From Ruminococcus sp. (GTDB taxonomy: Bacteria; Bacillota; Clostridia; Oscillospirales; Acutalibacteraceae), in assembly GCA_017410265.1 (NCBI GenBank), contig JAFQRC010000003.1, positions 1 to 64,000 of the forward strand: DNA of 64,000 nucleotides. The letters are read 5' to 3'. The position numbers and the translations under genes were made by a program. The notes beneath the pieces are model-generated. The model was not told where the DNA came from. It did no database searches and saw only the letters and a program-made list of their open reading frames with translations. How positions within the stretch are numbered: position 1 is the stretch's first letter; each line of letters begins with the position of its first letter. Shown here piece after piece: positions 11,132 through 31,449 of this stretch.

Positions 11132-11764
11132 CTATTCGTTTTGATTATCATCATCTTCCGAAGCCAGCTCTTCGGTAGATTTATTATTGTTATTTTCTTT
11201 TTCAGAATTATTTTCAGCATACTCAAGTTCATCTAGCGTCTTGTAAGATACAATAAGAGAAATAAGCTCGTATCCAAACAAAACGACGATTACAAGTATA
11301 AAGACTATCAAGCCGTATGGCTGAAGGAAGAATGTATAAACACTGTCGATAAAAGGAACTTTGCAGACAAACTCGCCCATAAGCTGATCTTCGTACCAAA
11401 GGGGGTCAGGAAGAGCTCCTTCAACGATTCCCTGTGATTCAAAGACATACTTCCCGTCAACCAGCTGAGGTTCTTCTATCATCTTATGTGTGATGAACTT
11501 ATCTGCGAAATCATCGACCTCGCCTTTATATGTAACTATATCGCCTTTGTGTATATCCTCGACATCAGCTTCTCTGACAAGAATGACATCGCCTATCATC
11601 AACTCAGGCTCCATACTTCCCGATGAAACGCGGAATATCTGGTAACCAAACACCGACGGTGCCTCTCCAGAAAGTCGGGCGTTGAACATCACGATAACGA
11701 CTGCAATTAAAATAACAAGCAAAATTGTGCCAAGAATGTTGAATACTTTTTTCAGTTTATTCAC
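11132..11764 (-). CDS. SipW-like (ER-type) signal peptidase I, first copy
   Basis: A 210-aa membrane peptidase. An N-terminal helix (about residues 10-28) is followed by the catalytic serine box SSGSMEPE (Ser50). A histidine stands where bacterial-type enzymes carry lysine (FITHKM, His93), so it belongs to the ER/SipW class. A second helix (about 148-172) and an acidic, Asn-rich cytoplasmic tail complete it. SipW of Bacillus releases TasA-type fibre proteins. Here the enzyme is the last gene of a run of SipW-type substrates, 9 bases after the preceding one. The start is GTG with AAGGTG upstream. A second, divergent copy lies at 27650-28429. Confidence 0.88.
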   Translation of the reverse strand: MNKLKKVFNILGTILLVILIAVVIVMFNARLSGEAPSVFGYQIFRVSSGSMEPELMIGDVILVREADVEDIHKGDIVTYKGEVDDFADKFITHKMIEEPQLVDGKYVFESQGIVEGALPDPLWYEDQLMGEFVCKVPFIDSVYTFFLQPYGLIVFILVIVVLFGYELISLIVSYKTLDELEYAENNSEKENNNNKSTEELASEDDDNQNE

Positions 11765-12376: not shown

Positions 12377-15300
12377 TTAATAGTCAAAATCAATAAAGCT
12401 ACCTGTGATACCTTCACCTATAGCAGTCGCTTCAAAAACGATATTTCCTATCTCGTCAAATCCATCATTATTCGCAGGAATACCTACTCCAAGTGTTCCG
12501 TATGAATAAATCTCAGTAGAATCATCTACTCCATCAAAGTCATCATAATTATTGGAGAATGTGTTCTTGTTGGAAAGATAGAAGTTAACCTTACTCTGAG
12601 CATTCTGAGGAATAACAGCACGATAGTAATCGGTGTTACCTACTCTTTGCATAGTAACGAAAGTCTTGTTGTTATTACTATTGTCCATAAAGCAGGCACG
12701 GACATTGAACTTAGAAATATCAGAACCCGAGTGGTTATAGAAATATATAACTCTCTCGCCGTTATAGTTGTTAGTACCAAACAAAGTCTTCAATGTCGCT
12801 GTAGCTTTGTGGTTAGCTGAGTCAGATGCTTCAACTTTGAAGTACTTAACACCGTTGTTGATATAGTTTTCTAACAGGAAGCTATTTATATATGCTTCTA
12901 ATGAATCATATTCAGAAATAATAAAGCCTGTAGCCCTGCTAGGAGTGAGTTCTTCATAAGAATTCAGTTGATTAGAATCAGAAATGAAAAGTTTTGCTGC
13001 GTAATTAAGTACTCCACCTTTAACGATAAGGTCAAGCTGGATGTTATTAATTACGGATGATTTGTATATCTTCTGAAGTCCTGTGAAATCTACAATCTCA
13101 AAGCTCTCAACTCTGATGAGATAGTACTTAACAGTAGTTGACACATTAGACTTAACTTCCACTAAAGAATAGCTATAAGTATTCTCGGTTGGTGTGATGT
13201 AAAGCGTACCTTTATTAAACTCGTAGGTAATAGGGTTACCCGAAACGACTCTAGCAGTAAGTATATCGTCACCATAATAGCATGCGTATTCGAATGTAGC
13301 TGCCTCGTCTTTTACAGTAGTACCCTGCTGGATAGAAGTCGCTCTGTCCTTTGCAACATAGTCTGAATAAACAAACTTCCATTCAGTAAGAGTGCCATTA
13401 TTATTCCAGAACGCGTTATTCTCACTCGGCACAGCAGCCTGGTTTGTTTTCTGACTAGTGTTGGATTTATTGTAGAATGTCACATACTTTGCACTGAACG
13501 GAATATCAGCGTAGTAAACGCGCTGGTTCATATCGTTAGTATATTTGTATGTCATTACAATACTGTTGCTTGTAAGATTAGTGTCACCACTTGTTACAGA
13601 AGGGTGAACAGAAACATTGTTATCTCCCCAAGAAGCGTTATCTGTAAAGAAGATTCGGCGTGTACCGTATTCTGTGCCCTGTGTATCCTCATTAAAAGTA
13701 AACTTTGAATCAACAGTAATAGTAGCGGTAGCAGTGGAATCTTGGTAAATCCTGAATGTTGAACCATCAGTTGTGCCGATAGACGCATTGTTTACGAGGA
13801 CATTATTAAGTACAGCACTTGTGTGGTCAGGTTTAACATTAACCGTAAGCTGTGTACCATAGCCGACGGAATCGCCATTGAAGTAGTAGTTACCTAGGTT
13901 ATCAGTTACATAAACCGAACCATACTGTGGCTGAACCATATAAATCTTAGGATTCTCAACAAACTTAACGGTATAAGTCTTATTCTGCCCTGTAAGCACA
14001 ACGCTAAAGGTCGCTTTACCATCTGTACTGATTGTAGCGCTGACATTATTACCGCTGACTAAAGCGTAGCAATTCTCAGGCGGAGTGATAACAACCTCTG
14101 CAGTTGCACCGTAGTTGAGCGGTTTAGGTGTACCGAAAGCTACTGCAGAACCATCAATCGTCATCGAGCCACCTGTAGTAACAGAAGATGTATTATCAAC
14201 ATTAACGGTTACTGTCTTGTTAGCAGTGAGAGTAGCTGTAACAGCACCGACATTTGCGGTTACATTGTTCTTAGTACCTGTTGCTGTAGACGCAGATATA
14301 GCACCCATTGTAACACCTGACATAGTCTGAACATAGTAGCCTGTATTCGGTGTAACAGAGTAAGATATATTTGTACCGTAGTCAATATAATAAGTACCGG
14401 TTGTAGAAACCGTGGTCTCTAAACCTTCACTATAATACTTGAAACTGAATGACGAAGCATTTGTCGGCAACTTTGGCTGTGCATAAGGCTTAACCGCTAT
14501 GCTATACTCGATAGTAACATCGCCTTTAACATGTTCAAGGACTAATTCATCAGTCAAATTGCCATTTAAGTTATTGACGCTCCAGATAGTTGTGCCGTCG
14601 TCTACAGTGATATATTCAAAGTAGCGTGTATTAGTACGCGAAATTGAAAGTGTCAGCGGACTGTTAGATAAAATCTTGTTATTGGTTATAGTAGTACCGT
14701 CTGTCTTGAGAGTAACCGCTGTACTTGACAACGAGCCTTTATTAGTAACAGTGATATCATAGTAAACAGTACTTTGTGTAACTGTGACAATCTGAGAGGT
14801 TGAGTAAACAGTTTCACCTGTTTTAGTGTTAGTTGTCTTAACTCTGAAATAATATGTACCTGTAGTATTAGGTGTCCATGTTGAGCCGGTGATACCAGAG
14901 AAAGTACTGTTATCTGTGCTGACCTGATAAGTCTGAGTAATATAGGCCTTTTCAGCGTCAGCAACACCGTTTACATACGCACCTGATAAAGTCAAGGTGT
15001 CAGCGTCTGTGATTGAGTTTGAGCTTACGCTGAAACCGGTATTCGCAGCGTTTAAGTGACTGAACACCATATAATGAGCAGTTGAGCTGATATTATTCGT
15101 TGAATAATATCCTTCTGTGTATGCCTTAGCATATACTGTATACGACTGATCGACTCCCTTTGTTGAAAGTGAGGGACTGAATGTTTTAGTCGTAGAATAT
15201 GTACCATTTGAAGTTGTAGAATAATGAGCTGTTGCGCCAGTTACTACTGTTGCATTTGCAGTAAGAGTAAACCCACCATTTTCAAATACGATATACGGAT

Positions 15301-16585
15301 TTGATGAAGTACCAGTGCCATTTGTACCCGAAACCACATTAGAACCCGTTAATGTAAGAGCTGATGGCGCATTTGGTCTGAAGTAAGCTTTTACAGTAGC
15401 ACCGTTTGCTGTTGGTGTGAGTGTAGTAGAGGCAGATGTTGTTGAACCAATTGTAGCCTTTGTAAGACCGCTCCATGCAGCAAAGGTATAGCCAGTACTT
15501 GGTGTCGCTTCAATAGACACACTACTGCCAGCTTTTACTGAACCGCTAGTTGGAGAAACGGTACCTCCGTAGCCATGAGTAACTGTGTATGTGTACTTCT
15601 GTTCTTCAACTTTAACATAAATTGTGTTAGAAGTTTTATAAGACGATGAGTAATTCGAGGTAGAACCTTCATAACACCAAGCATAACCCGTATAGGTTGT
15701 AGTGCCCTCAGTAGTGCTTGCAGTGTATGATTTCGTATATGTATTGGAAGTGCCCGACGAAGCTTTAGACGAAGAGCTGTTGATATTCCAACCAAAACCT
15801 TCCATACCAGCGTCATCTTTTGTCGCAGTAAGTTTAATTGAAAACGATGCACCAGGACGAACGATATAAGGGTCAGCGTTGGTACCAGAACCGCTGACTG
15901 CATTTGTTACAGAAGCTGTGACAGATGATGGTGGAACTGCATAAATCTTTGAACTTCTACTTGTACCACCAGCTGTAAATCCATAATAACAGTTTGAAGT
16001 TTCAGAAAAAACAAGGTCACCGGTCTGATTCCAAATATTCTCGAAAGGACCACCAATTGCAGAGTTACGAGTGAAAATAACATTAGTATATGTACCTGCG
16101 TTAGTAACTTTCGCACGGTAAATAGCACCACTCGCACCGGCAGTACCTTCATACAGTTCAAATAAATACGAATGAGTTCCTGCGGTTCCCCCCCACATAT
16201 AAGCGTACGCATAAGAATTATTTAAAATCCATGTTGTTGAACCCCAGCCTGATGGAACAAAGTTTTGTAAATAGATATATTCACCAGATACATAAGTTCT
16301 TGTTGCAGCAGTAGTAGTAACATCAACATTAGCTTTTGTATCAGCTAAATCATTCTTGTTGTTCTGCTTCACAGCGACTGTCTGTATATCAGCAACGAGA
16401 GAGCCACTTTCCCCTGTGTTATCTGATACAAATGCAGAGAAGGTTGTTGAAACTAAACCTAAAATAAGCAGAACGAGTAAAGCGAACACAGTGATGTTAC
16501 GCTGTAATGCTAAAGCTTTCATTCGCTTTTTCTCTTTGATTTGTGCTTTGATTTGTGCCTTTGTAAGCTTTTTATTATGGCTCAT
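12377..16585 (-). CDS. Giant 1402-aa secreted protein with starch-binding-like and InlB-like repeat modules
   Basis: The N-terminus has a Lys-rich helix and a membrane segment ending TTFSAFVSD (residues 47-55), a SipW-type signal variant. A starch-binding-like module follows at about 100-202 (YIYLQNFVPSGW, AYAYMWGG, TNVIFTR, NIWNQTGDL). An InlB-type B-repeat is near 330-405 (GYGGTVSPTSG, STGYTFAAWSG) with further bacterial Ig/InlB-like repeats rich in Thr, Ser and Asn. Two more CBM26-like modules follow (IFFTDNASWGD near 975; VIYFYNHSGSD near 1270). There is no LPXTG, dockerin or cell-wall repeat, so the anchoring mode is unknown. Module limits are estimates. It is the largest product of the cluster and probably contacts substrate. 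Confidence 0.75.
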   Translation of the reverse strand: MSHNKKLTKAQIKAQIKEKKRMKALALQRNITVFALLVLLILGLVSTTFSAFVSDNTGESGSLVADIQTVAVKQNNKNDLADTKANVDVTTTAATRTYVSGEYIYLQNFVPSGWGSTTWILNNSYAYAYMWGGTAGTHSYLFELYEGTAGASGAIYRAKVTNAGTYTNVIFTRNSAIGGPFENIWNQTGDLVFSETSNCYYGFTAGGTSRSSKIYAVPPSSVTASVTNAVSGSGTNADPYIVRPGASFSIKLTATKDDAGMEGFGWNINSSSSKASSGTSNTYTKSYTASTTEGTTTYTGYAWCYEGSTSNYSSSYKTSNTIYVKVEEQKYTYTVTHGYGGTVSPTSGSVKAGSSVSIEATPSTGYTFAAWSGLTKATIGSTTSASTTLTPTANGATVKAYFRPNAPSALTLTGSNVVSGTNGTGTSSNPYIVFENGGFTLTANATVVTGATAHYSTTSNGTYSTTKTFSPSLSTKGVDQSYTVYAKAYTEGYYSTNNISSTAHYMVFSHLNAANTGFSVSSNSITDADTLTLSGAYVNGVADAEKAYITQTYQVSTDNSTFSGITGSTWTPNTTGTYYFRVKTTNTKTGETVYSTSQIVTVTQSTVYYDITVTNKGSLSSTAVTLKTDGTTITNNKILSNSPLTLSISRTNTRYFEYITVDDGTTIWSVNNLNGNLTDELVLEHVKGDVTIEYSIAVKPYAQPKLPTNASSFSFKYYSEGLETTVSTTGTYYIDYGTNISYSVTPNTGYYVQTMSGVTMGAISASTATGTKNNVTANVGAVTATLTANKTVTVNVDNTSSVTTGGSMTIDGSAVAFGTPKPLNYGATAEVVITPPENCYALVSGNNVSATISTDGKATFSVVLTGQNKTYTVKFVENPKIYMVQPQYGSVYVTDNLGNYYFNGDSVGYGTQLTVNVKPDHTSAVLNNVLVNNASIGTTDGSTFRIYQDSTATATITVDSKFTFNEDTQGTEYGTRRIFFTDNASWGDNNVSVHPSVTSGDTNLTSNSIVMTYKYTNDMNQRVYYADIPFSAKYVTFYNKSNTSQKTNQAAVPSENNAFWNNNGTLTEWKFVYSDYVAKDRATSIQQGTTVKDEAATFEYACYYGDDILTARVVSGNPITYEFNKGTLYITPTENTYSYSLVEVKSNVSTTVKYYLIRVESFEIVDFTGLQKIYKSSVINNIQLDLIVKGGVLNYAAKLFISDSNQLNSYEELTPSRATGFIISEYDSLEAYINSFLLENYINNGVKYFKVEASDSANHKATATLKTLFGTNNYNGERVIYFYNHSGSDISKFNVRACFMDNSNNNKTFVTMQRVGNTDYYRAVIPQNAQSKVNFYLSNKNTFSNNYDDFDGVDDSTEIYSYGTLGVGIPANNDGFDEIGNIVFEATAIGEGITGSFIDFDY

Positions 16586-16684: not shown

Positions 16685-18979
16685 TTATTCTGTGATGTTG
16701 AAGTAAATACCATTAGCTAAATCATGACCATATGTAAAAACAGCCTCGTTAACACCTGGTCCAGTATATGCTGTCCAACGGTAATTTATCGTAGTCACCG
16801 TTGAATCAAAATCATTTGTATACCAACGATAGTTGTCGAGTTCGTTCATTTCAAAATACGTTGTACCGCCGTCGACTGAATACTCAAGTTTTGAGTTTTC
16901 AACACTTGATAAAACATCATTTACTACATTATCTGCAGAGCCGTCAACAACAACTGCAATGTGCCACTGACCAAGTGAAGTCGTAGCAGCCATATCGGTA
17001 GCATAGAATATAGAGCTTCCGTTTCGTGCTACAGCAGCAGTACCAGAGTTCCATGTGCCAGCATTGCTTGTGCTTGTTAATCTACTAAATCGTTGGAAAG
17101 AAATATAATTACTAGTGGTTGTGCCACTATCTTTCGGAACAAAAGCACCCCAAGTAAGTGCGTTTTTATGTTTAGTCATATAATAGTAACGGCGTGTGCC
17201 ATTAATAATAGCGCTGACCTTATATCTCAAGTCTTTATTCATAGATGCATCTACAAGCTCGGTTGAGAACAGAATCTGCTCAGTTTGCATCCATGTTCCA
17301 ACGCCGGCAGCTTTTGACTGAGAACTAACTAAACCTGTACCCTCGTAACCGAGAGCAGTATAGATTTTCACATCATCGTCATAATATGATTCCGAGTTAG
17401 AAGCTGTCCACTGAACTTTAATTGTTGTATCAGTGTAAGAATCAGTAGATGTGAATGAGTAAATAGGAGTTTCGTTGTCTTCAAACACTTCAAAATAGCC
17501 TTTGAATGTATCAGTTGCTGCATCATAATACATACGAGTAGCTTTAGCTGAAGCGGTAGTAGAATCAGAGAGATAAAGCCTGTTTTGTGTAATCTCTCTG
17601 TTCTCTCCTGCCCTCGTTATAAACTGATAGCCGTATGCGTTATAGTCTTCGTCAGTCGCAGACGATGTCTGGTCTTTAAACTGGAATAATTCGATATCTG
17701 TATCATCCCATACACCGTAACCAACATTTCCTGTGTTATTCTTCAGCACACTTAAAGCTTTGAAGATATAAACATCACCGTCATTTACAGCAGGAGCAGT
17801 TATAGGCCATTTGTATTGCTCGTTTTTAACACCTGTGCCTGCGTTATATGTACCATAGAAGAAGTAGCCGTCAGCTGGATTTGTTGCAAGATGTTTTCTC
17901 ATATCGTCAGAGATACGAGGAGTTGCCTCTCCCTCATCAGATGCTGTAACCCAACGCGTCGCCTCCGTCTGAGAGTCAATCGTGGTCATAGGAACGACTG
18001 ATATAGTCGTGCCTTCCTTATAATAGAAGTAAAGGCTCTTTGTCTGATCTTCCTGAGTGACATGATGACCTTCAAAACCTTCTTTAGTGCTGAAGGTATA
18101 GTCATCAAAGAAGAAAGTCTGGAAGTTAGAAGCAGCGTTAACAAACTGGAGGTTGATTTTCACAGTACAGCCGAGAAGTGCAGTTTTCTGAGCTGCTGTA
18201 AGAGCTGCAAACTGTGCATCTTTCTCCTCGAACCAGATTTTGACATTAACTTTTGTATCATCGCCACCACCTGTTGTTGAGAACACAAACAAGTTGGCGT
18301 TTGTATTAGTCTGGTAATTATATTCACTACCATTAGAAAGTCCGGTTGAAGTTATACTTTTAGTACCTCCGGCTTTTGTATTAACAGCATTATATGTTTT
18401 CGAATCAATAGAGTAAATACGGGTATTTGAAGAAGTTGTACCAGCTGTTACTGAAACACGCATTGCCTTCTCAGCTATAACAAGCATCTCATCTGTGACA
18501 TCAGGATTATCGGATGTGACATCAAAGATATCAGCTTTATTGAAATAATAGTTATATGACTTAGCGGTTTCATTGTGAACCTGAAAGTCGATATTGTAAT
18601 AGCTGGTATTATAGTCAGTAGTATCGCCAAGACGATATGTAGCAGCTCCATCTTTCTTAAAATAGAAGTTCTTAGCATCAGGTGTTGAAGCCTGAGCCAG
18701 CTGATAAAGCGCTGTTGGTCTGAAATATGTGGAGAGATCCACCATATTTGTCGCACCATCTTTAACATCAAAGCGATAATTAATATTAGAATTAATAGGA
18801 AGGTCTTCACCTTTGATTTTAAGCGAGGATGATGACTCAATCCAACTGAATGTGGTAATACAAAGTAAAATAATACACTCAACAAGTGCCACGATAGAGA
18901 GTATTGAATTTTTATTTTTGCCTTTAAAAAGCTTTTCAGTAAGATTATAATTTCTGAGTTTATCTATAATAACTTTCAT
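16685..18979 (-). CDS. Secreted TasA-like domain protein, 764 aa
   Basis: A cytoplasmic basic tail, a membrane helix and the SipW motif TTFSWIESS (residues 42-50). The N-terminal 300 residues carry the domain shared within this cluster: YYNIDFQVHN, KAMRVSV, and KVNVKIWFEEKD as a degenerate form of the W-h-EG-x-D motif. The remaining 450 residues are beta-rich with repeated short strands and Thr/Ser turns (RLYLSDSTTA, NSKLEYSVDGGTTYF). No certain CBM could be delimited, although the C-terminal part resembles the sandwich modules of its neighbours. SD AAGGAGGTG. Cell-surface localisation is inferred from the signal. Confidence 0.7.
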   Translation of the reverse strand: MKVIIDKLRNYNLTEKLFKGKNKNSILSIVALVECIILLCITTFSWIESSSSLKIKGEDLPINSNINYRFDVKDGATNMVDLSTYFRPTALYQLAQASTPDAKNFYFKKDGAATYRLGDTTDYNTSYYNIDFQVHNETAKSYNYYFNKADIFDVTSDNPDVTDEMLVIAEKAMRVSVTAGTTSSNTRIYSIDSKTYNAVNTKAGGTKSITSTGLSNGSEYNYQTNTNANLFVFSTTGGGDDTKVNVKIWFEEKDAQFAALTAAQKTALLGCTVKINLQFVNAASNFQTFFFDDYTFSTKEGFEGHHVTQEDQTKSLYFYYKEGTTISVVPMTTIDSQTEATRWVTASDEGEATPRISDDMRKHLATNPADGYFFYGTYNAGTGVKNEQYKWPITAPAVNDGDVYIFKALSVLKNNTGNVGYGVWDDTDIELFQFKDQTSSATDEDYNAYGYQFITRAGENREITQNRLYLSDSTTASAKATRMYYDAATDTFKGYFEVFEDNETPIYSFTSTDSYTDTTIKVQWTASNSESYYDDDVKIYTALGYEGTGLVSSQSKAAGVGTWMQTEQILFSTELVDASMNKDLRYKVSAIINGTRRYYYMTKHKNALTWGAFVPKDSGTTTSNYISFQRFSRLTSTSNAGTWNSGTAAVARNGSSIFYATDMAATTSLGQWHIAVVVDGSADNVVNDVLSSVENSKLEYSVDGGTTYFEMNELDNYRWYTNDFDSTVTTINYRWTAYTGPGVNEAVFTYGHDLANGIYFNITE

Positions 18980-19012: not shown

Positions 19013-22000
19013 CTAGTTTGTACCAGCGGTACCATTAATATCCCAATATTCAGCCTCGTAAAGAGCAACGTTCATTGTTTCATTATCTTTAAGACCGCCT
19101 GAGATAGTGCTCTGTTTGGTTGCACTCGTGCTTTGGCTGGAAGAACTGCGATATGTCAGACCGTTACGATCCAGACCTACACCGCCGATACCTTTAATAT
19201 CACCGGTTTTATACCCCTTGTCGGAGTTACTGAAAATAACCGCATTATATCGAGATATATCCATAATAACTTTGTACAAGCTGTAACCAGAAGCACCAGC
19301 ACTATGATAAGTCATCACACCACCAGGATATTCTCCGTTACCATTACCATTTGAACCTACATCATCCCAGATATAACACTTAGGGTCACTTCCGTATCCA
19401 CAGAAATCAGTAGACAATTCTAAGAACAAAGTAATCTGGAAATTTTCAATTGAGCAGATATTCTTGCCTACAGTGTTCGAGTACGCATTATTTGTAGAAG
19501 TAGTCGTATCAACAGTCTGCAGTGGCGTTACATCCCATTTATCGTTATGATTACCCGGATTCACTCGTTCTACACGATACTTATAATAACTTCTATTAGA
19601 TGGTACTACGCAAGCGTAGCCGTAACCACCATCGCCCGGAGCATAGTAATTGTTTTTATACAGGTATGTATAGAAGTCATTAGAATTATCAGTACCACTG
19701 CTGTTAGCGTAGAAATGAACCTGCATAAACGCGTTGTCCATTTTTGATTTCGCTATATTCTTAACCTGTACATAGAGCATATCGGAACCCCAATAGCTCC
19801 ACTTGTTACCATCTGAGTCTTCAGTAATCTCATAGAATTTACCATTACAAACTCCTGCATTCCAACTCATATGATATGTAAGCTCATTTTTGTCGGAATT
19901 GAGAGCGTACTTGCCATTAAAGTTGAAGTAACGTTTAAATGTAATCTGATTTTCAGTATTATGGTTAGTACCATCCTTAGAATAAACATTATATGGTACG
20001 AGGAAGTAGTACATACTTTTATCGGCAGCACCTGAGGCTTTATACTCAATTGTCTGAGTAGCTCCGTTAGAATACTTATAGAGGTAATTCATCGTAAGAA
20101 CAGAAGTTGTGCCATCTTTATCAGAATTTTTTATCCACTGACCATTAGTACCATCGTATACGGTGACAGCGTGCAATTCATGATCACCCCAAAGACCACC
20201 ACATGATTTAGCGGGAGCTCCGGTGTAATTTGATCCATCTTCGTTCTTTGCGGTTGTCGGAGCACCGTCAGAAATAGCAGTGAAATAAACAACGCTATCA
20301 ACAACAGCCTCGCTAATACCACTGAATCCGTTAGTGTCCCAATAGTTCCATACTTCGTCTTCTTTCATCGGGTTAACTCGTCGGAACATAATGTGCTCAG
20401 AATTGATGAGGTCTACAGGAGCTCGACACTGCCAGATAGTAGGTTTACCCTCTTCGTCATCATGAACACTCATAAGATAACCTTTATGATTTTCAGCATC
20501 ATAGAGCTGGATAACAGGATTGAACGATACACCTGTATCGGTTGTAACCTTGTCATCAATCCAGTTTTCTTTAGTTTTATCAAGGAACTGATAAGTGTAC
20601 ATCTCCTCACCCACAGAGTCAGGAGTAGCAAATACGAGGTTCATGTCAATGTATTTGCCGGCATAAACATCCTCTGTACAGTCAGGATCAGTACCCTCAA
20701 GCCAGATAATCAAAGATAGCGGCAAAGTCTGACCTGCTTCAATAGTAAACAACGGGTTATTCGAACCATTGTTATAGTCATCTATAGAAGATGCAAAAGC
20801 CGGAATAACGACTTTTGAATCACCTGAATTATCATCGATTTGAATGACAGGTGCGTAAGGACGCTGGAAACCAGTTGATACACCCGGTGAAATAACAGGA
20901 TATGTACCGCCTTCAACAGTGCCAATATAATTTTCCTGTTCCCAACCATACTCGTTATCGCCGGTTGGAGAGCCAATCATATAGATATAGCCATCTTTTA
21001 CAGGATAAATATCACCTGTCTTGACGGCACCACCCTCAGAATTTCCATCGTTGAAGATGATGGAATCATATTTTGAGTTGAAAGTGTAGTAGTAAACAGA
21101 ACCGGAGATGTGAGTCATTGGCTTACCTGGCCAAGCTGAAAGTGATTCATCGTTGTTTCCGTTTTCACGCCAGATATATGCATGTGGTTGTTCCCAGCCG
21201 AGAGTATTGTTGAAATAAACTGTTGTGTAGTTTTCGTCATCAGGAGTAGTAGGAGCCTCAGTAGAGGGTTCTGTACCTGTATTTGAACCACTGCCGTCAA
21301 CCTTAGTACCGCCTTCAATTTCAATGTTTTCTAAAGCCCACGTACCATTACGACCTTCTTCTAGTTTATAAACTCCCAGATCGTAAACATCTAGGTCAAC
21401 AGTCTGGTTTTGATCTCCGTGATAGCTAAAGATAACTTTGTTGCAAGCTGTACTATATGTATACGAAAAAAGACCCGTAGTTGAATCATAAGTCATAACT
21501 ACACCTGGGAAGCTACCATTATTAGTTGTATCTCCCCACACATATGCTCTAACTTGACCTACATCAGTCCAATCAGAAGGAGCGTCAAGATACACCGTAT
21601 ATGTACCGCCAACAGTACCACCATCTTCCGTAGGAGCTTCAGTTGGTTCATCAGTAGGCTCTTCTCCCTCATACTCCTGAGAAAGAAGTGATGAAGTGAT
21701 TTTACCTGATGAGCCATCGTTCTGGTAAAAAGCCATACGGATAGCCTTCGAGTTGACTTCGACATTTGTTTCCGGATCGTAAAGCTTGAAGTAAGATTTA
21801 GAGCTGAGGTAAACAGGCATATCTTCAACACCTGTGTTAGTAAGAGTGAAGTCTACGTTGATATACTTTGAGTTCATATCATTAACAGTAGCTTCACGGA
21901 ACTTAATGTCAGAAGTGTTAATACTATTGAAGGTTCCGGTAGTAGGAATAAAAAGATTGCGGCCATCAAGAGAAGTAACAGGCTCAAACTGGAACTCGTT

Positions 22001-22234
22001 GAGATAGTTCCAGATGTTTACATAGTCTTTATCATCAGCGTCATTGAAGTCAATCTCAAGACCTGAGTCAGGTTCTACCATAATAGTATCAGTGTTAACT
22101 GTATTATTCTCAGCAAAAACAAACCATGCGAAAGTACTCACACAGATAAGGATAAGAACTTCAATGATTGCAACTGCAACAATCAATGGAGAAGTCCTGA
22201 AGATATTCGGTTTTTTGAAGTTAGATAAATTCAT
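19013..22234 (-). CDS. Secreted TasA-like protein with inserted CBM26-like starch-binding modules
   Basis: About 1073 aa. The signal motif is STFAWFV (residues 34-40 counted from the first of two ATGs). The shared domain carries KAIRMAF (164-170) and IIWLEGTDPDC (510-520). Between these two motifs lie Thr/Pro/Glu linkers (EPTDEPTEAPTED) and two CBM26-like modules at about 213-295 (YTVYLDAPSDW, AYVWGD, FPGVVMTYD, NKVIFSYHGDQNQTVDL) and 337-415 (TTVYFNNTLGWEQ, AYIWREN, WPGKPM, DSIIFNDG). A third is near 960-1030 (KCYIWDD, YPGGVMTYH, NAVIFSNSDKGYKTGD). CBM26 binds starch, so this product is the strongest sign that the locus serves starch adhesion. The second ATG has the better SD spacing. No sortase signal is seen. 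Confidence 0.8.
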   Translation of the reverse strand: MNLSNFKKPNIFRTSPLIVAVAIIEVLILICVSTFAWFVFAENNTVNTDTIMVEPDSGLEIDFNDADDKDYVNIWNYLNEFQFEPVTSLDGRNLFIPTTGTFNSINTSDIKFREATVNDMNSKYINVDFTLTNTGVEDMPVYLSSKSYFKLYDPETNVEVNSKAIRMAFYQNDGSSGKITSSLLSQEYEGEEPTDEPTEAPTEDGGTVGGTYTVYLDAPSDWTDVGQVRAYVWGDTTNNGSFPGVVMTYDSTTGLFSYTYSTACNKVIFSYHGDQNQTVDLDVYDLGVYKLEEGRNGTWALENIEIEGGTKVDGSGSNTGTEPSTEAPTTPDDENYTTVYFNNTLGWEQPHAYIWRENGNNDESLSAWPGKPMTHISGSVYYYTFNSKYDSIIFNDGNSEGGAVKTGDIYPVKDGYIYMIGSPTGDNEYGWEQENYIGTVEGGTYPVISPGVSTGFQRPYAPVIQIDDNSGDSKVVIPAFASSIDDYNNGSNNPLFTIEAGQTLPLSLIIWLEGTDPDCTEDVYAGKYIDMNLVFATPDSVGEEMYTYQFLDKTKENWIDDKVTTDTGVSFNPVIQLYDAENHKGYLMSVHDDEEGKPTIWQCRAPVDLINSEHIMFRRVNPMKEDEVWNYWDTNGFSGISEAVVDSVVYFTAISDGAPTTAKNEDGSNYTGAPAKSCGGLWGDHELHAVTVYDGTNGQWIKNSDKDGTTSVLTMNYLYKYSNGATQTIEYKASGAADKSMYYFLVPYNVYSKDGTNHNTENQITFKRYFNFNGKYALNSDKNELTYHMSWNAGVCNGKFYEITEDSDGNKWSYWGSDMLYVQVKNIAKSKMDNAFMQVHFYANSSGTDNSNDFYTYLYKNNYYAPGDGGYGYACVVPSNRSYYKYRVERVNPGNHNDKWDVTPLQTVDTTTSTNNAYSNTVGKNICSIENFQITLFLELSTDFCGYGSDPKCYIWDDVGSNGNGNGEYPGGVMTYHSAGASGYSLYKVIMDISRYNAVIFSNSDKGYKTGDIKGIGGVGLDRNGLTYRSSSSQSTSATKQSTISGGLKDNETMNVALYEAEYWDINGTAGTN

Positions 22235-22272
22235 CATAAATCTCCTAAAAACAGAATGAACGAAAAATAAAC

Positions 22273-23346
22273 TTATGCACCTGCTAAATCAAAGTTAACC
22301 TGGAACTGTCCGCCGGCAATAGCACGGCGAGCTTCAGCGTCGCAGCCCTCAATCCAGATGTTAACCTGTGTTTTGCCGTAATAGTATCCATTTGATTCAT
22401 AAGTTACATCACAGATAGCATCACGGCTAGGGTCAGTCACTGTGCCAATGTAGTTTATATCAATGCCAGTATAACCTCCAGATTCACCAATATTTTCATC
22501 ATAAACATACGAAAAATAATGATGAGTATAGGTGTCACATTGGCTGTTCATACTTTTATCATTAGTGAAGGTATCAATTATTTGATTAGGCTGAACATTT
22601 TGAGAGAGTGTCCACGGATTTAAAGAAGCATTAGTTGTAGAATTCAGGTGGATATCAGGACGAGGTAACCAAAGAAGACGAGCACTATCAGAAAGATTAT
22701 CATGATCTTCGCCTTCAATAAACTGGCTGTAGTTTACAAAAGAAACTCTGACAGCACCAACAACTGCGTCTTTAGAGAAATCACCCTCCGAAGCTTTTCT
22801 GTTATCCCCTGTGTCTTCAGTCTGGATAAGATTACCGTCGCCAGGTGTCTCTTCTATTGCACCTTTAACAAAGGAGCCGCTATCAAGGAAAACTCGACAT
22901 GGATCCTCTGCCTTAAAATACATATCAAAACAAATGTATTCCTTATTAGGCGAAACAGACGTGAAAGTTCCGACATTTCGGTCGATGTCAGTGTTTTTTG
23001 GAAGCATAGACGGACGAACAAGAGTTACACCATCACCTGTGATATCAATAGGGCTGAAATCATGAAGAACATCATAATGAGTCCCTTCAGCAGTGATAAT
23101 GTCACGAAGATTCATATTCTTGGAATACTGTGACATAGTGTACTGATAGCCGTTGACAGATGATTCAAATCCAACAGCCATCTCAAAATATTCAGAACCA
23201 CTGGCTTGTATAATAAGACCATCGGCGTTTACCGGTTTATCAGTAGGAGCAAACCAAGCAAGTGATGCTGCAAAAACCATTACAATTAAAGCGAGCAATA
23301 ACATGATGGCTTTGATAATCAGAGATGTGTTCTGCTTCGACTTCAT
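22273..23346 (-). CDS. Secreted TasA-like protein, 357 aa
   Basis: The signal helix ends in ASLAWFAPTD (residues 27-36), a SipW-type motif. The mature part has the shared beta domain: EYICFDMYFKAED, GAVRVSFVNYS, and near the C-terminus VNIWIEGCDAEA followed by FQVNFDLAGA. The protein stops right after this domain, so it is a single-domain family member and a candidate fibre subunit. AAAGGAG precedes the ATG. It lies 30 bases after the coiled-coil protein gene and 38 bases before the CBM26-bearing gene. Confidence 0.75.
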   Translation of the reverse strand: MKSKQNTSLIIKAIMLLLALIVMVFAASLAWFAPTDKPVNADGLIIQASGSEYFEMAVGFESSVNGYQYTMSQYSKNMNLRDIITAEGTHYDVLHDFSPIDITGDGVTLVRPSMLPKNTDIDRNVGTFTSVSPNKEYICFDMYFKAEDPCRVFLDSGSFVKGAIEETPGDGNLIQTEDTGDNRKASEGDFSKDAVVGAVRVSFVNYSQFIEGEDHDNLSDSARLLWLPRPDIHLNSTTNASLNPWTLSQNVQPNQIIDTFTNDKSMNSQCDTYTHHYFSYVYDENIGESGGYTGIDINYIGTVTDPSRDAICDVTYESNGYYYGKTQVNIWIEGCDAEARRAIAGGQFQVNFDLAGA

Positions 23347-23376: not shown

Positions 23377-25767
23377 TTAGTCAAGGTAATCCTCGATATT
23401 TTCAAGTTCAAGAATCTTCTCAGGTTTATAGTCGAGTAAGAGAGCCGCTTTCTTAGCGAAAGCTTTAGCTTTCTTCTTGGCTTTCTTGAGATTCTTGTTA
23501 TATTTATCTTCGATTTCTTTAGTAGCAGCTTTAAGCTTAGCTTCATACTTCTGCTGATCAGTGAAGCCTTTAGCAACAGCAATTTCGCCGTCCTTAGCCT
23601 TAAGCTTAGCTTCGTATTCAGCTTTTAATGCTGAAAGCTTCTTTTCGAAATCGGAATTGAGCTTAGCAACCGCTTTCTCACTATTCTTTTCAGCGTTCTT
23701 CATCGCTTTGTCTTTATTAGAAAGCTCTTTGTCCTTTGCTTTCAGATTAGCGATGTGGGTGCTGACAGTTTTGTTAAGCTCATTATACTCAGAACGGGAT
23801 TTAGTGAGTTCGTCCTGAAGTTTATTAGTCTTTTCGTTGTTTTTCTCGATTAAACTATCGCGTTCAACAACCTTAGCTTTTTCTTTAACAAAATCACTCT
23901 TTAGTGTTTTGTAGTCACCTTCTAAGGTAGAAAGCTGAGTAGAAAGATTAGCAATCTGCCCGTTAGCAGTGTCAATCTGAGAAGCCTTTTCTTCGATGTC
24001 AGCCTGCTGTGTAGCAATAGTATTCTCTTGCTGAGAAACAGTTGACTTCAGGTCAGCGTTCTCATTAGTCAGGGTGCTGTTGGCATCTCGAAGTTCAGCA
24101 ACACTTGTATTGAGAATAACAATCTGGGAAGCCTGCTCTTCGATAGTTTTAGCTTGTTTTTCAGTTAAATCCTCAAGTTCAGCAATACGAGCTTTGTGCT
24201 CTTCTATCTCAGCATTAAGGTCACGAATAGTGGTTTCGAGAACAGAAATCTTATCGTTGAGGAAGTCGATATGAGCTTCGAGTTCAGCAATCTTAGCCTT
24301 ACAAGCTTCAACTTCAGCCTGAAGCTGAGCAACCTGAGCTTCAAGTTCAGCAATTTTTGCGTTTAATGTATCAATAAGAGCGTTGAGTTCGACAATCTTA
24401 GCTTCAAGAGCTGCAATTGTAGCAGCCTGAGCAGCGATAGTCTGCTTCTGCTCTTCTACGATGCCTTCGAGTTCAGCGATTCTAGCTTTGCAAACTTCGA
24501 GTTCAGCCTCGAGTTCAGCAACTCTCTGCTGAGCAACTCTGAGTTCTTCTCTGGTTTCTTCAAGTTCTTGCTCTCTGACTTTGAGGAGAGTTTCGAGTTC
24601 TTTGATTCTTAAGTCTTTCTGTCTGACTTTTTCCTTTTCCTGGTCAAGTTCAGCAGTGAGCTGTGCGATAAGTAAATCACGCTCACGAACTTCTTTGAGC
24701 CTTATTGCCATCTCTTCGCGTCGAGCTTCGTAAATCTGCTCTTCAAGCCACTTAGCTTTTTCTTCTTCAGGCTTGTTAGCTTCGGCAGCTCTGCGTTCAT
24801 TTTCAGCGACATAGTCAGCATGGAGCTTATCCTTGAGCGCTTTGTTAGTAGAAATAGTCATAACAAAGTGCTGGAATGCCATTACATCGTAAAGTTCTGA
24901 CTGGGTATCAGCGTCCATTTCGCCGGAGAACTCGTTTGACTCTACAACATAACCGGTCTTACGATAAGCCTCTATAAAAGACCATAACTCATTACATTTT
25001 GAGAAGTTAGGGTTCTTTTTGATACAGTTTGTTTTGTTAATAGGAGAACGAACCTGAATACAACCTTTGAGTGACTGAATGAGGTTTGTGTTAACAAAGT
25101 CATCAAGCATCATACGAATACGAGTAATACGCTCGTAGTCGGTGAGGTTAGAAATATCCTCTTCCTTATCGACCTTATCACGGTCGTGGGATTCAGAAGC
25201 ATAAGTGAGGTTGAACGCAAACATCTGGTTGTTGAGGTTAGCATAACGCTTCATCTCAACACTAGTATAGGAATCGTTCGGGGCTTCTTTCAGCGCACGA
25301 AATCTCGCTTCAACGAAAGAAATAGTTTTAAAAATAAGTGTGTATAAAAATCTGTTTTCATATGTAGCGTAGCTATCTTCACGGTGAGTGTTCAGAAGCT
25401 TTGACGGAGAAACAGAACCGTCAGGGTCCACAGCCTGAATAAGGCTGGTGTGCTGAGTAAGGTGACGAACAGCTTCTTTAGTTACCTGCTTAACCTTATC
25501 AACACGGTCAACTTCTTCATATGTTTCGATAAATCTACGCTCTTCGCGGATGGCTTTATCCATATAAGGCAGAGTTTCTTCAATCTTCTCTACCCACTCC
25601 ATATCGATAACTCGGTTGTAAGCGTTACCGGCTAAGATATCTTTACCAGCATCTGCGTCTTTGAGAGCTCCTGTCAAATATCCTTTTGTAAAGTCCCCTT
25701 CGAGCGTCTGCTTCATTTCAGCATATGCTCTGTAGTATCTACTGTAATCTAACAAGGAACTCACCAT
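23377..25767 (-). CDS. DUF2357/McrC-like protein with long C-terminal coiled coil
   Basis: A 796-aa cytoplasmic protein. Residues 1-315 are globular and carry a stretch resembling DUF2357 (McrC-related) proteins: VRHLTQHTSLI, then THREDSYATYENRF (127-140), and LWSFIEAYRKTGY. Residues about 325-745 are almost continuous heptads (repeated AELEAxxxxCKAKIAELE-type units), and a Lys-rich tail ends at EDYLD. Most DUF2357/McrC proteins end in a PD-(D/E)xK nuclease; none is visible, so the nuclease seems replaced by the coiled coil. It starts 26 bases after the McrB-like AAA+ gene, its expected partner. The start is uncertain: AAAGG abuts this ATG, and a TTG four codons on is possible. The DUF2357 match is by eye. 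Confidence 0.65.
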   Translation of the reverse strand: MVSSLLDYSRYYRAYAEMKQTLEGDFTKGYLTGALKDADAGKDILAGNAYNRVIDMEWVEKIEETLPYMDKAIREERRFIETYEEVDRVDKVKQVTKEAVRHLTQHTSLIQAVDPDGSVSPSKLLNTHREDSYATYENRFLYTLIFKTISFVEARFRALKEAPNDSYTSVEMKRYANLNNQMFAFNLTYASESHDRDKVDKEEDISNLTDYERITRIRMMLDDFVNTNLIQSLKGCIQVRSPINKTNCIKKNPNFSKCNELWSFIEAYRKTGYVVESNEFSGEMDADTQSELYDVMAFQHFVMTISTNKALKDKLHADYVAENERRAAEANKPEEEKAKWLEEQIYEARREEMAIRLKEVRERDLLIAQLTAELDQEKEKVRQKDLRIKELETLLKVREQELEETREELRVAQQRVAELEAELEVCKARIAELEGIVEEQKQTIAAQAATIAALEAKIVELNALIDTLNAKIAELEAQVAQLQAEVEACKAKIAELEAHIDFLNDKISVLETTIRDLNAEIEEHKARIAELEDLTEKQAKTIEEQASQIVILNTSVAELRDANSTLTNENADLKSTVSQQENTIATQQADIEEKASQIDTANGQIANLSTQLSTLEGDYKTLKSDFVKEKAKVVERDSLIEKNNEKTNKLQDELTKSRSEYNELNKTVSTHIANLKAKDKELSNKDKAMKNAEKNSEKAVAKLNSDFEKKLSALKAEYEAKLKAKDGEIAVAKGFTDQQKYEAKLKAATKEIEDKYNKNLKKAKKKAKAFAKKAALLLDYKPEKILELENIEDYLD

Positions 25768-25793
25768 CCTTTAAGAAAAGTTAAAATCTAAAA

Positions 25794-27649: not shown

Positions 27650-28429
27650 TTATACTTCCTCTTCGGAAGGTGCATCGCTTTGTGATGCCTGAGCATTTTT
27701 TTGTGCCATAAACTGCTTGAACTGCTCGTATTCTTCAGCAGACATCTGAGGAGTATCAGGAGCATTTTTCTCCTTTTCTTCCTGTTCTTTAGCCTTTTTG
27801 TACTCAACAAAGTTGATAACAACCTTGATAAGAACATAAAGGAAGAAGATAATCATTGGTAAAAGAATGCAAAGGAAGAAGCCAAGCTGTGAGTTGATAA
27901 ACTCGTAAACTTTACCTACACCTGCTATCTTTACACCCTGAAAGTCGCTTGTATAGTATTTAGCGACGATAGAATAAGCTGTGATGTACTCCCCTACTTC
28001 ATTCTGATCAGGGAGCATTGAAACAGAGCGATTATCACCCTGAGTCTGGTAAACGATTTCACCGTCACGCTCCTGAACATCTACGATTCTATGGCAGATA
28101 AGCTGTTCACCGAGGTGGTCGTTACCCTGAAGTATCCCCTTGAAAGTGATGATATCGCCCTCTTTATAGGTTTCAGGTGTATCGGTAGTATCGTTTTTTG
28201 TAATTTTGCCGATGATGACATCACCTTTTTTGAAATCGCCACCATCATATTCATCACTACCACCGTCCATAGAATCAGACATAACAACCTGAACAGTGTA
28301 GCCGAAAACATTAGAAATACCGGAGGATTTAGAAGTAAGAGCAAGAACAGCAACAAGTAAGGATACAACTAAAACAAGAACTATTAAAATGTTAATTACA
28401 GTGTTTAATATACTCTTAAATACTTTCAT
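27650..28429 (-). CDS. SipW-like (ER-type) signal peptidase I, second copy
   Basis: A 259-aa membrane peptidase with an N-terminal helix (about 8-32), the catalytic serine in MSDSMDGG (Ser53), and a histidine as general base in LICHRIVDV (His113). QTQGDNRSVSM is the conserved box near the active-site fold. A second helix (about 180-207) and a long charged tail follow. Compared with the copy at 11132, the serine box is VMSDSM instead of SSGSMEP and the inserted loop is longer, so the two may cleave different subsets. It lies between the major-subunit candidate and the AAA+ gene. SD AGGAG. Confidence 0.87.
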   Translation of the reverse strand: MKVFKSILNTVINILIVLVLVVSLLVAVLALTSKSSGISNVFGYTVQVVMSDSMDGGSDEYDGGDFKKGDVIIGKITKNDTTDTPETYKEGDIITFKGILQGNDHLGEQLICHRIVDVQERDGEIVYQTQGDNRSVSMLPDQNEVGEYITAYSIVAKYYTSDFQGVKIAGVGKVYEFINSQLGFFLCILLPMIIFFLYVLIKVVINFVEYKKAKEQEEKEKNAPDTPQMSAEEYEQFKQFMAQKNAQASQSDAPSEEEV

Positions 28430-28527: not shown

Positions 28528-29343
28528 TTATGCTGTAATAGTACCAGCTGTGCTGAACTTAACAGAAATGTTCTTAACGAGATCCTTGAGGTTGTCTACG
28601 TTAGATGTTGAACAGAGATCATCTTCACCATCGAGCCATACATACATTGTGATTGTACCAGGTGTTTTATAACCAACCTCTTTGCTGATAGTAGCAACAT
28701 CACCATTATCGTAAGCATTTGTGTAATCTGTTGCAGAAACAGCTGTTTCTGTGAGGTACTTGTTAGCTATACCGTCAGGTGACCATGTACCAATTACAGT
28801 AGAACCATCAACGAGTGTTACACGAATTGCCTGATAAAGGTTCTTGTTTGTAGCAGCTGATTCGCCTGTTGCTTCTTCGATAGTTACATTACAAGCATTT
28901 ACAGTGATTTTTTCGTCACTGTTAACAGAAGATCTGAGATAAATGATTTCCTGATAACCAGCTGAAGAAGTTGAGATAGCAGCATTAGCATCTTTAGCAT
29001 AGTTTGTCTCAACAGCAGCAGATGTTGTACGGAATACAGCACCAGAAACTGAACAGTCAAGAGAAACAGGAACGCCAAGTGTAACACCTTCAGGGTTAGT
29101 TGTTCCTATAGCAGATGCTTTGAGTACTGTAGAAACGTCGTAGCCTTTACCGAGTGCCTGCTCAGATTCAGAAACAATCTGGAGACCTGCAGAAGCTGTA
29201 GCCTTAAGTGTAAGACCATCTGCGCTTACCTGTGGGTTGGTTGTGAACCATGCGAATGTTGCAGAACCAAGAGCTACGAGAGCAACGAGGAGCATAGCAA
29301 CTGAAGACAATAAAGCCTTCTTTCTAAATGTTGTGTTTTTCAT
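28528..29343 (-). CDS. Candidate major fibre subunit: TasA-like SipW substrate, 271 aa
   Basis: The signal helix ends in SATFAWFTTNPQVSADG (motif at residues 28-36), the most canonical SipW cleavage context in the cluster. The mature protein is Ala/Thr/Ser-rich with few charges. It has YQAIRVTLVDG and, near the C-terminus, ITMYVWLDGEDDLC, the shared motif pair. It ends about 25 residues later. The strongest SD in the cluster (TAAGGAGGA, 7 bases before the ATG), the simple composition and a private structured leader suggest high expression. A start 24 codons upstream lacks an SD and is rejected. It is the best candidate for the polymerising subunit, but fibre formation is inferred. Confidence 0.78.
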   Translation of the reverse strand: MKNTTFRKKALLSSVAMLLVALVALGSATFAWFTTNPQVSADGLTLKATASAGLQIVSESEQALGKGYDVSTVLKASAIGTTNPEGVTLGVPVSLDCSVSGAVFRTTSAAVETNYAKDANAAISTSSAGYQEIIYLRSSVNSDEKITVNACNVTIEEATGESAATNKNLYQAIRVTLVDGSTVIGTWSPDGIANKYLTETAVSATDYTNAYDNGDVATISKEVGYKTPGTITMYVWLDGEDDLCSTSNVDNLKDLVKNISVKFSTAGTITA

Positions 29344-29411
29344 GAGAAATTCCTCCTTAATTTTTATCCCCCAAAAACACACAGGGGATTGTTTAATAAA
29401 TAATATATCGA

Positions 29412-29432
29412 CCATCTAAGTACGCCTTAGAT
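29412..29432. promoter_or_regulatory. Perfect 8-bp inverted repeat upstream of the major-subunit candidate
   Basis: CATCTAAG-TACGC-CTTAGATG, centred about 78 bases upstream of the ATG. No T-run follows on either strand, so a terminator is unlikely. An operator for a dimeric regulator, or a 5'-leader hairpin, fits better. I could not define a convincing promoter next to it; AT-rich TATATT/TATTAT hexamers lie just downstream. Confidence 0.4.
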
Positions 29433-29502
29433 GATAAATACCAAAAGAAGCGTCCGAGTACCGGAGCCTTTTGATTTTCAAAGCGACCGCAACCACGCGT
29501 TA

Positions 29503-29530
29503 AAAATCAAAGATATTTCTCTTTGATTTT
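29503..29530 (-). terminator. AT-rich hairpin with competing partner upstream of the major-subunit candidate
   Basis: An 11-bp stem (AAAATCAAAGA/TCTTTGATTTT) with a 6-base loop. Its AAAATCAA arm can also pair with TTGATTTT at 29471-29478, so two structures exclude each other. It may end transcripts of the upstream gene partially, or act as an attenuator in the 269-base gap 29344-29612. I see no gene in that gap. Confidence 0.35.
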
Positions 29531-29612
29531 AGCAAGTGGTTAAGGAGCAGTAGAAAATCAGAAGAGCAGCGCAGGTAAACGAGGCGTGACATCGCCGTGC
29601 ACAGCACCAATT

Positions 29613-30467
29613 TTAAATCTCTTCACCATCAATATTGAAGAGCCACTGCATCTTAACATAACCGCCCATAATATCGTTAATGCACTCAGGGTCGTTACCT
29701 TCAATCCAAGTAACGATAGTGTACTTGATAGTTTCGTTAGGAGCGATGTCTTCTGTGAGATCATTCAAGATGATGTAGTCTTCAAGGTTCAAATCGTCAG
29801 CACCTTCAACGAATTCGAAGTTGACGATTTCTTCAAGCTGGCTGTTGTCACGATTCTTCTGAGCGTAGATGGTAGGCTCACCGTTTCTGTAAATCATAAT
29901 ACGGAGCGCCTCGTCTGCGTTCTTAGCGATACCTGTGAACTTCAGTGTGCTCTCAAGATCAAGAGTTTCTTTACCATTATTAGTAAGATAGAATGTATAA
30001 GCAAGGTAGTTTTCGCCGTTGTGCTCGCCGTCAGCCTCAGTATCAAGATTAGTCGGGAGCCAGTCATATGTAATATTGGTAACCTCTGTTACATTCTGAG
30101 CTGAAAGCTGAAGTACAGGGTCTTTAGCTGAGCCGTCTTCGTTAAGTGACTCGCTGATGATAATACCCTCTCTTGCTGCGCCGTTTTCGACAGAAATTAC
30201 GAGGTCACCGATAGTAGTCAAAAGCCAGGAGATAATCCACAGAATGATGAGAATTAAAATAGCGATAACAAGTGTTACACCAGCTCTGCGTTTCCATCTA
30301 ACAGTACGACCGATATCCTTACTGTCACGACGAGCCATGAATCTGTCGAAGATGGTCATGTTGCGGGCTTTGTCAACCGCGATATCACCTTTATCTTCGA
30401 GCTTCTTTAACTGTTCAGGAGAGAAAGGCTCGTCAGTATTCACTTTTTTCTTAGAAAACAATGGCAT
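29613..30467 (-). CDS. Membrane-retained TasA-like family member, 284 aa
   Basis: A 60-residue charged cytoplasmic tail (MPLFSKKK, then RRDSK, RWKRR) precedes a membrane helix at about 62-85. The extracellular domain has AYTFYLTNNGKETLD, EALRIMIYRNG and TIVTWIEGNDPEC, ending FNIDGEEI. The helix is not followed by the T-F-A-W-F cleavage motif of its relatives, so the protein is probably not released and could be the basal anchor of a surface structure. GGAGGTGG precedes the ATG at 30467; a TTG five codons earlier is rejected. Second gene of the cluster, 42 bases after the first. Confidence 0.72.
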   Translation of the reverse strand: MPLFSKKKVNTDEPFSPEQLKKLEDKGDIAVDKARNMTIFDRFMARRDSKDIGRTVRWKRRAGVTLVIAILILIILWIISWLLTTIGDLVISVENGAAREGIIISESLNEDGSAKDPVLQLSAQNVTEVTNITYDWLPTNLDTEADGEHNGENYLAYTFYLTNNGKETLDLESTLKFTGIAKNADEALRIMIYRNGEPTIYAQKNRDNSQLEEIVNFEFVEGADDLNLEDYIILNDLTEDIAPNETIKYTIVTWIEGNDPECINDIMGGYVKMQWLFNIDGEEI

Positions 30468-30509
30468 CAAAGCCACCTCCAAAACTATCTATATGTTATG
30501 TATAGGAAA

Positions 30510-31328
30510 TTAAGCAAATGGTGCGTTGTTCTCGTCTGTGCCTGAGAAGAGAAGACGAACGGTCAGGTTAGCACGCTGAACATCGTCGTCACACTGAGGG
30601 TCGTTACCCTCTGCCCAAACGCGGATTGTAACCTTCTTTGGTTCAAGCTCGTTTAAGAAGAAAAGACGAGTGTCATTTGTGTAGTTCATAGGAACTGCTA
30701 AATCGAAGGTTGTCTGACCATTTACTGCGGAGCCAACCTTATTAGGCTCGAAAATCGCAGCAGGTGTAGCACCCTCTTCTTCAAAGCCTACGCGTATAGC
30801 CTGAACAACTTCAGCCCTGAGTCCTGTCTCTGTAGTACTAACAGCTGTGCCTTCAAAATCATTGATATCATCTGAAGAAAGATGAACCCACATATCCTTT
30901 GAAGCGATAAAGTAACAATCAAATTCGAGGAAAGAACCTCTACCTGCAACTCTGGTCGCTCCATGCTCACCCTCGAAAGTAATACCGTTTCGTGTAGTAA
31001 CAGGGTCTAAGAGCTGTTCAGCTAGAGTGTAGTTACCGTTAGCCCTGAGATATGAGTTTATCATCTCGTTAGTGATGGTCTTCTTATATAGCTCGATATC
31101 AGAACCGTGGTTTTCCATATCTACTCTAAGCTCAACGCCGGTAGTAATATCCATCTGGATATTCTCTACACTTGCAAAGCTATTGAGTGTAAACCACGCC
31201 AGAGTTGAAGTAATGAGCACCAAGAGTGCAATAACGCAGAGCATAAAAGTTGTCTTGCGTTTTATTCTAGCCTGGGCTTTGTTAAGTTTTTCGATTTCCA
31301 ACAGGAGCTGCTGTTGATTTTTATCCAT
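30510..31328 (-). CDS. TasA-like SipW substrate, first gene of the cluster, 272 aa
   Basis: It starts MDKNQQQ with a 26-residue amphipathic cytoplasmic tail, then a membrane helix ending STLAWFTLNS (residues 41-50), a SipW-type motif. The extracellular domain shows FLEFDCYFIAS, QAIRVGFEEEG, FFLNELEPKKVTI and RVWAEGNDPQC, followed by LTVRLLFSG. The shared motif pair is therefore complete and the protein ends soon after. It is a candidate minor pilin-like or nucleating subunit. The leader of about 115 nt runs from the promoter at 31450-31478. GGTGA precedes the chosen ATG; a start four codons upstream is possible. Confidence 0.75.
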   Translation of the reverse strand: MDKNQQQLLLEIEKLNKAQARIKRKTTFMLCVIALLVLITSTLAWFTLNSFASVENIQMDITTGVELRVDMENHGSDIELYKKTITNEMINSYLRANGNYTLAEQLLDPVTTRNGITFEGEHGATRVAGRGSFLEFDCYFIASKDMWVHLSSDDINDFEGTAVSTTETGLRAEVVQAIRVGFEEEGATPAAIFEPNKVGSAVNGQTTFDLAVPMNYTNDTRLFFLNELEPKKVTIRVWAEGNDPQCDDDVQRANLTVRLLFSGTDENNAPFA

Positions 31329-31449
31329 AACAATCACCATTAAATATATATATAAATATGTATAAAATAATCACCTTAGAAAATGTTGATAAATCATCAA
31401 CTCTATGCTTACAGACATAGTTATAGCAGGGTAGATTACAACCAAAAAC

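Follow-up and report, generated by a model that had tools for sequence, protein, structure and literature searches.

Predicted starch-binding modules within a TasA-like domain encoded in a SipW-type operon of Ruminococcus

Introduction

The gut bacterium Ruminococcus bromii and its relatives play a keystone role in the degradation of resistant starch. The attachment of this group to starch granules has so far been explained by dockerin-cohesin amylosomes. A gene in the 2.0-Mb genome of a Ruminococcus sp. (GCA_017410265.1) raises the question of whether starch might also be held by modules that interrupt another domain. An earlier note, made from sequence alone, had read its product as a TasA-like domain into which CBM26-like modules on Thr/Pro/Glu linkers are inserted. 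We examined this reading in a window of 64,000 nucleotides (contig JAFQRC010000003.1, positions 1 to 64,000 of the forward strand). The product is called p1074 here, after its 1,074 residues.

Architecture of p1074 and its operon

The p1074 coding sequence occupies 19013..22237 on the minus strand, as delimited by its open reading frame; the earlier note began the frame at the second methionine, and its residue numbers run one lower than ours. An AlphaFold2 model of the full-length protein, built from 57 sequences, reached a mean pLDDT of 79. Together with the Pfam matches it gives a layout that starts with a SipW-type signal, followed by a TasA-like domain split by two CBM26 modules, then three beta domains and a C-terminal CBM26, all features lying on the minus strand. 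The signal (residues 1-43; 22109..22237) combines a basic N-terminus with one hydrophobic helix (17-43 in the model) containing STFAWF, and its W38 is invariant in the 57 aligned sequences. From alignment and model strands (86-172), the N-terminal half of the TasA-like domain was placed at residues 44-178 (21704..22108), with an A-h-R-h motif near its end (A165-I-R167-M, residues 165-168; 21734-21745). The C-terminal half, placed likewise (model strands 458-533), comprises residues 446-545 (20603..20902) and carries the motif h-W-h-EG-x-D (I511-W512-L-E-G-T-D517; 20687-20707).

Four segments separate the two halves. A Thr/Pro/Glu linker (residues 179-210; 21608..21703; EGEEPTDEPTEAPTEDGG), predicted to be disordered with pLDDT below 50 at 178-210, leads to CBM26 module 1 (211-300; 21338..21607), and a second such linker (301-334; 21236..21337; GTEPSTEAPTTPDDEN), with pLDDT below 50 at 316-334, leads to module 2 (335-441; 20915..21235). 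Beyond the TasA-like domain, the model resolves beta domain D2 (546-660; 20258..20602), present in many relatives, and beta domain D3 (684-800; 19838..20188), to which D2 is related (residues 541-640 against D3, hhalign, 78%). Beta domain D4 (808-915; 19493..19816) has no clear family by model, fold search or profile comparison. CBM26 module 3 (925-1035; 19133..19465) lies at the C-terminus in sequence with the other domains and is not inserted. D2 to D4 were also considered as extra CBM26 modules, for which profile comparison gave no support.

The gene lies 35 bp behind p357 (22273..23346) and 33 bp ahead of p764 (16685..18979), all three on one strand. Gene-context comparison identified p357 as an upstream SipW-type protein that regularly neighbors both p1074 and its uninserted relatives, and p764 as a downstream SipW-type protein in the same slot in relatives. 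The remaining cluster, also on the minus strand, encodes p1402 (12377..16585), a secreted protein of 1,402 residues in which an InlB B-repeat domain (PF18998) is accompanied by long stretches rich in Ser/Thr, and three small proteins whose sequences carry SipW-like signals (p295, p289 and p276; 28528..31340). SipW-type signal peptidases are encoded at 11132..11764 (NF046067, E 2e-26; TIGR02228 over its cut-off) and 27650..28429 (NF046067, E 6e-25), both scoring under the NF046067 cut-off of 190 bits. Peptidase genes thus stand beside those of their putative substrates, SipW-type signals being present in p1074 and its operon neighbors. The two peptidases differ from each other and flank the same cluster. 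A TapA-like match of p276 was weak (19.6 bits, below the cut-off).

The host domain

The uninterrupted core of the R. bromii family member (L047, residues 40-302) was modelled with AlphaFold as one compact domain (pLDDT 80, pTM 0.77). Its best match among solved structures was TasA 5of2 (Z 6.8, 151 of 191 residues, 4.0 A, model residues 24-263), followed by TasA 5of1 (Z 6.4, model residues 21-263), with the next entry at Z 5.4. Because the alignment spans model residues 24-263, it covers both sides of the insertion point. Strand order around the insert in the full-length p1074 model (strand 166-172, then strands 458-533) matches the order in the model without the insert. Sequence identity in the structural alignment was 10-11%, and the match is moderate and not decisive, as a Z of 6.8 can be reached by unrelated beta sandwiches. 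Foldseek alone returned nothing at E 0.001 for the same core. TasA was not listed when the full-length p1074 model was used in the fold search, which was silent on the host domain because CBM modules filled the matches. A sequence search of solved structures with whole p1074 or its alignment gave nothing meaningful.

PF12389 (TasA/camelysin; Peptidase_M73) had zero matches across the genome, with the B. subtilis control matching, and the host domain is therefore not a member of the TasA family by sequence. When the family profile was compared with that of TasA/camelysin relatives, the alignment was collinear at the last, C-terminal strands but too weak to serve as evidence by itself (hhalign, 5.7%). 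The SipW-type peptidases, the SipW-type signals and this collinear weak alignment lend weight to the moderate fold match. As modelled, the host domain is TasA-like in fold and setting; the label chosen in the earlier note holds for these two and fails for the PF12389 sequence family.

TasA of Bacillus subtilis builds a fiber through a donated N-terminal strand, that is, by donor-strand exchange (PMC9674648). The p1074 family resembles TasA (5OF1/5OF2) in host fold, single SipW-type signal helix, operon-encoded SipW-type peptidase and a disordered but conserved N-terminal stretch. Unlike TasA, p1074 lacks a PF12389 match, is some four times longer and bears inserted and C-terminal CBM26 modules. 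Residues 43-68 are predicted to be disordered, and conservation across 52-64 is 0.58 versus 0.57 in the core, with G59 and L60 at about 0.9. This segment has the look expected of a donor strand, a likeness that is suggestive and no more.

Polymerization of the host domains by donor-strand exchange, as in TasA, would be the least certain step of the mechanism proposed below for p1074. We give slightly less than even odds to a host domain that is a plain stalk of a surface adhesin and never polymerizes, with the SipW-type signal reflecting export and processing only. The C-terminal half of p1074, a row of beta domains with a CBM26 at its end, is what a stalked adhesin would have; no report of a fiber in Ruminococcus was found in the literature searched, and Foldseek with the full-length model also listed Gram-positive pilus adhesins, with poor overlap. 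The TasA fold match, the operon's pair of SipW-type peptidases and its several small secreted partner proteins, and the conserved, donor-strand-like segment 52-64 argue against a plain stalk. A stalk would be compatible with the rest of our explanation, since it concerns the fiber step only. That p1074 is a fiber subunit whose heads are displayed from a loop is an inference.

The CBM26 modules

CBM26 (PF16738) was the sole family matched in a Pfam scan of p1074, which accordingly showed neither dockerin nor cohesin. Scanned piecewise, modules 1 and 2 scored 38.1 and 62.5 bits, above the gathering cut-off of 28.1 bits, and module 3 scored 24.9 bits, below it; hhalign profile-profile comparison nonetheless grouped module 3 with the CBM26 set at 98.7%. 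The module 2 model has the CBM26 beta-sandwich fold, matching R. bromii Sas6 (7uwu; Z 11.2, rmsd 2.4 over 90 residues) and B. halodurans BhCBM26 (2c3h; Z 9.6), and the structure of an E. rectale CBM26 tandem aligns to the p1074 model over residues 211-478. Among solved structures, R. bromii Amy16 is nearest to module 2 in sequence (E 7.5e-13). The two modules that the earlier note had placed on Thr/Pro/Glu linkers between the motifs thus belong to a CBM family by both sequence and fold. Its count of two holds for the inserted modules and falls one short for the protein, the third CBM26 sitting at the C-terminus.

An aromatic triad (Y-x-W ... W), which we take from BhCBM26 to be the binding face, reads Y-W-W in module 2 (Y354-W356-W369), Y-W-F in module 1 and Y-W-Y in module 3. 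Starch binding by the p1074 modules is likely. It is unlikely that the inserted modules instead bind another glycan, for instance mucin of the host or a polysaccharide of the cell itself, or now serve as structural spacers. Such a change of role would fit the Phe that replaces the usual Trp of WPG in module 1, as well as the loss of triad residues from modules two and three where three are inserted. Against it, module 2 keeps its full triad and is nearest to Amy16, a starch enzyme of R. bromii, and nearly all insert carriers retain the triad in at least one inserted module. In the three-module forms (L029-L036, L040 and L041) the triad is intact in the first inserted module.

Relatives with and without the insert

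The aligned set of 57 sequences comprised 36 without insert, R. bromii included, and 21 with insert, p1074 included. Anchor residues R167 and W512 were kept in all 57. Spacing between these anchors was 73-89 residues in every one of the 36 uninserted sequences, versus 345 in p1074 and 209-445 across the 21 inserted. With the anchors universally kept and the uninserted spacing fixed, the insertion is not a matter of chance. Spacings of the inserted sequences fell into three groups (209-217, 327-375 and 422-445), which fit the presence of one, two and three modules, respectively, although the CBM26 model used for counting misses a few of the more diverged copies.

Across the genus, the family was found in 102 of 161 genomes, and 95 best matches covered the domain. 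Seventy-two of these were uninserted (excess length of at most 45 residues) and 23 inserted, with excess lengths of 140-148 (2 genomes), 249-297 (8) and 362-380 (13). The 638-residue relative in R. bromii ATCC 27255 was identical over 638 of 638 residues to that of a same-genus genome, G032, which places the genome studied here in one genus with R. bromii. Where flanks were compared, inserted and uninserted forms shared one operon slot, between p357 and p764. The host is thus continuous in relatives and broken at one fixed site in p1074. The fixed anchor spacing and the shared slot support the insertion proposed in the earlier note, the flanks of the insert together making up one domain, which relatives have unbroken. 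That the CBM26 pair lies between two separate small domains, with nothing interrupted, is very improbable given the single compact domain modelled for the R. bromii relative, the alignment of its core to one TasA domain across the insertion point and the tight anchor spacing in 36 relatives. An assembly or frameshift artifact was rejected, the same architecture being found in 23 genomes.

In an unrooted tree of the domain without its insert, all carriers fell on one side of a single branch with support of 100/100. Convergent insertions were rejected on this grouping, in a tree whose root is not fixed. The simplest history consistent with the sequences would be that a gene already present in the operon received the insert once and that the number of modules changed afterward. 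Since the tree is unrooted, loss of the insert would be a less simple alternative.

Discussion

With the question of polymerization set aside, p1074 is probably a secreted adhesin for starch that has a TasA-like domain as its base and is displayed from the surface of the cell or from its matrix. In the mechanism that we propose, an operon-encoded SipW-type peptidase would process the exported protein, and the TasA-like domain would seat it among the small secreted partners of the operon, in an assembly at the surface or in the matrix. The inserted CBM26 pair would project from the host domain on flexible Thr/Pro/Glu linkers, consistent with their low pLDDT, and would grip starch through the aromatic triads, tethering cell or matrix to granules. 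A further CBM26 would act at the end of the chain of beta domains. We propose more tentatively, and regard as less likely than not, that the operon makes an undescribed adhesive fiber or matrix in bromii-group Ruminococcus from SipW-processed TasA-like subunits. The subunit of one lineage would carry one to three CBM26 heads in its beta sandwich, and the whole would be a second means of holding starch, alongside the amylosome.

Binding modules within other domains have precedents. CBM4 pairs interrupt the catalytic domain of the GH10 xylanases Xyn10C/Pm25, the copy number ranging from one to three between homologues, and a CBM58 is inserted in the enzyme SusG (PMC7848910). Like these, p1074 holds binding modules within another domain, and copy number varies as in the xylanases; unlike these enzyme hosts, its host is TasA-like and shows no sign of catalysis. 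CBM26 modules of R. bromii amylases, Sas6 and Eubacterium rectale Amy13K are arranged sequentially with modules of catalytic or dockerin type (PMC5814915, PMC9112005). The p1074 modules share family and fold with them, and module 2 the aromatic triad, whereas two of the p1074 modules lie inside a domain, and the protein has no enzyme family match and no dockerin.

With 77 matches to dockerin and 39 to CBM26, the genome is that of an amylosome-type starch degrader. With the R. bromii amylosome (Sca scaffoldins, Sas20 and Doc proteins), p1074 shares genus, the CBM26 binding module and probably the substrate. It differs in having neither dockerin nor cohesin, and its assembly would use the SipW/TasA-like operon. 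As p1074 lacks a dockerin, its route would be parallel to the dockerin-cohesin amylosome and not a part of it. The literature that we searched, with most subscription papers outside it, contained no description of a CBM insertion in a TasA-like protein or of this operon, and nothing joining TasA with carbohydrate-binding modules, camelysin with Ruminococcus, or TasA/SipW with Ruminococcus in this sense. The arrangement in p1074 points to a mode of starch attachment that has not been described and that would exist in addition to the known amylosome. Many species of the genus have the SipW/TasA-like operon, and a single lineage has starch modules built into one of its subunits; this would add a second route of attachment. 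The TasA-like sandwich also appears to tolerate large insertions at one loop, a property that could serve the decoration of protein fibers.

Starch modules occur elsewhere in the operon. In uninserted species, proteins of the p764 slot (L055:5965-9465, L057:7800-11594 and L075:7679-10957) carry a CBM26 near the C-terminus, in sequential arrangement. As these are not inserted, starch modules would have entered the operon by more than one route. The slot of p1074 and its relatives lies behind AAA+ and coiled-coil genes. In the window these occupy 23377-27326, preceding p357-p1074. The AAA+ protein is membrane-anchored and weakly similar to McrB, and the coiled-coil protein matches DUF2357 (McrC-type partner) at its N-terminus. 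Among the genomes of the genus that have the AAA+ gene, identity is 70-95%; the gene also occurs in other families of the order, at about 55-61%.
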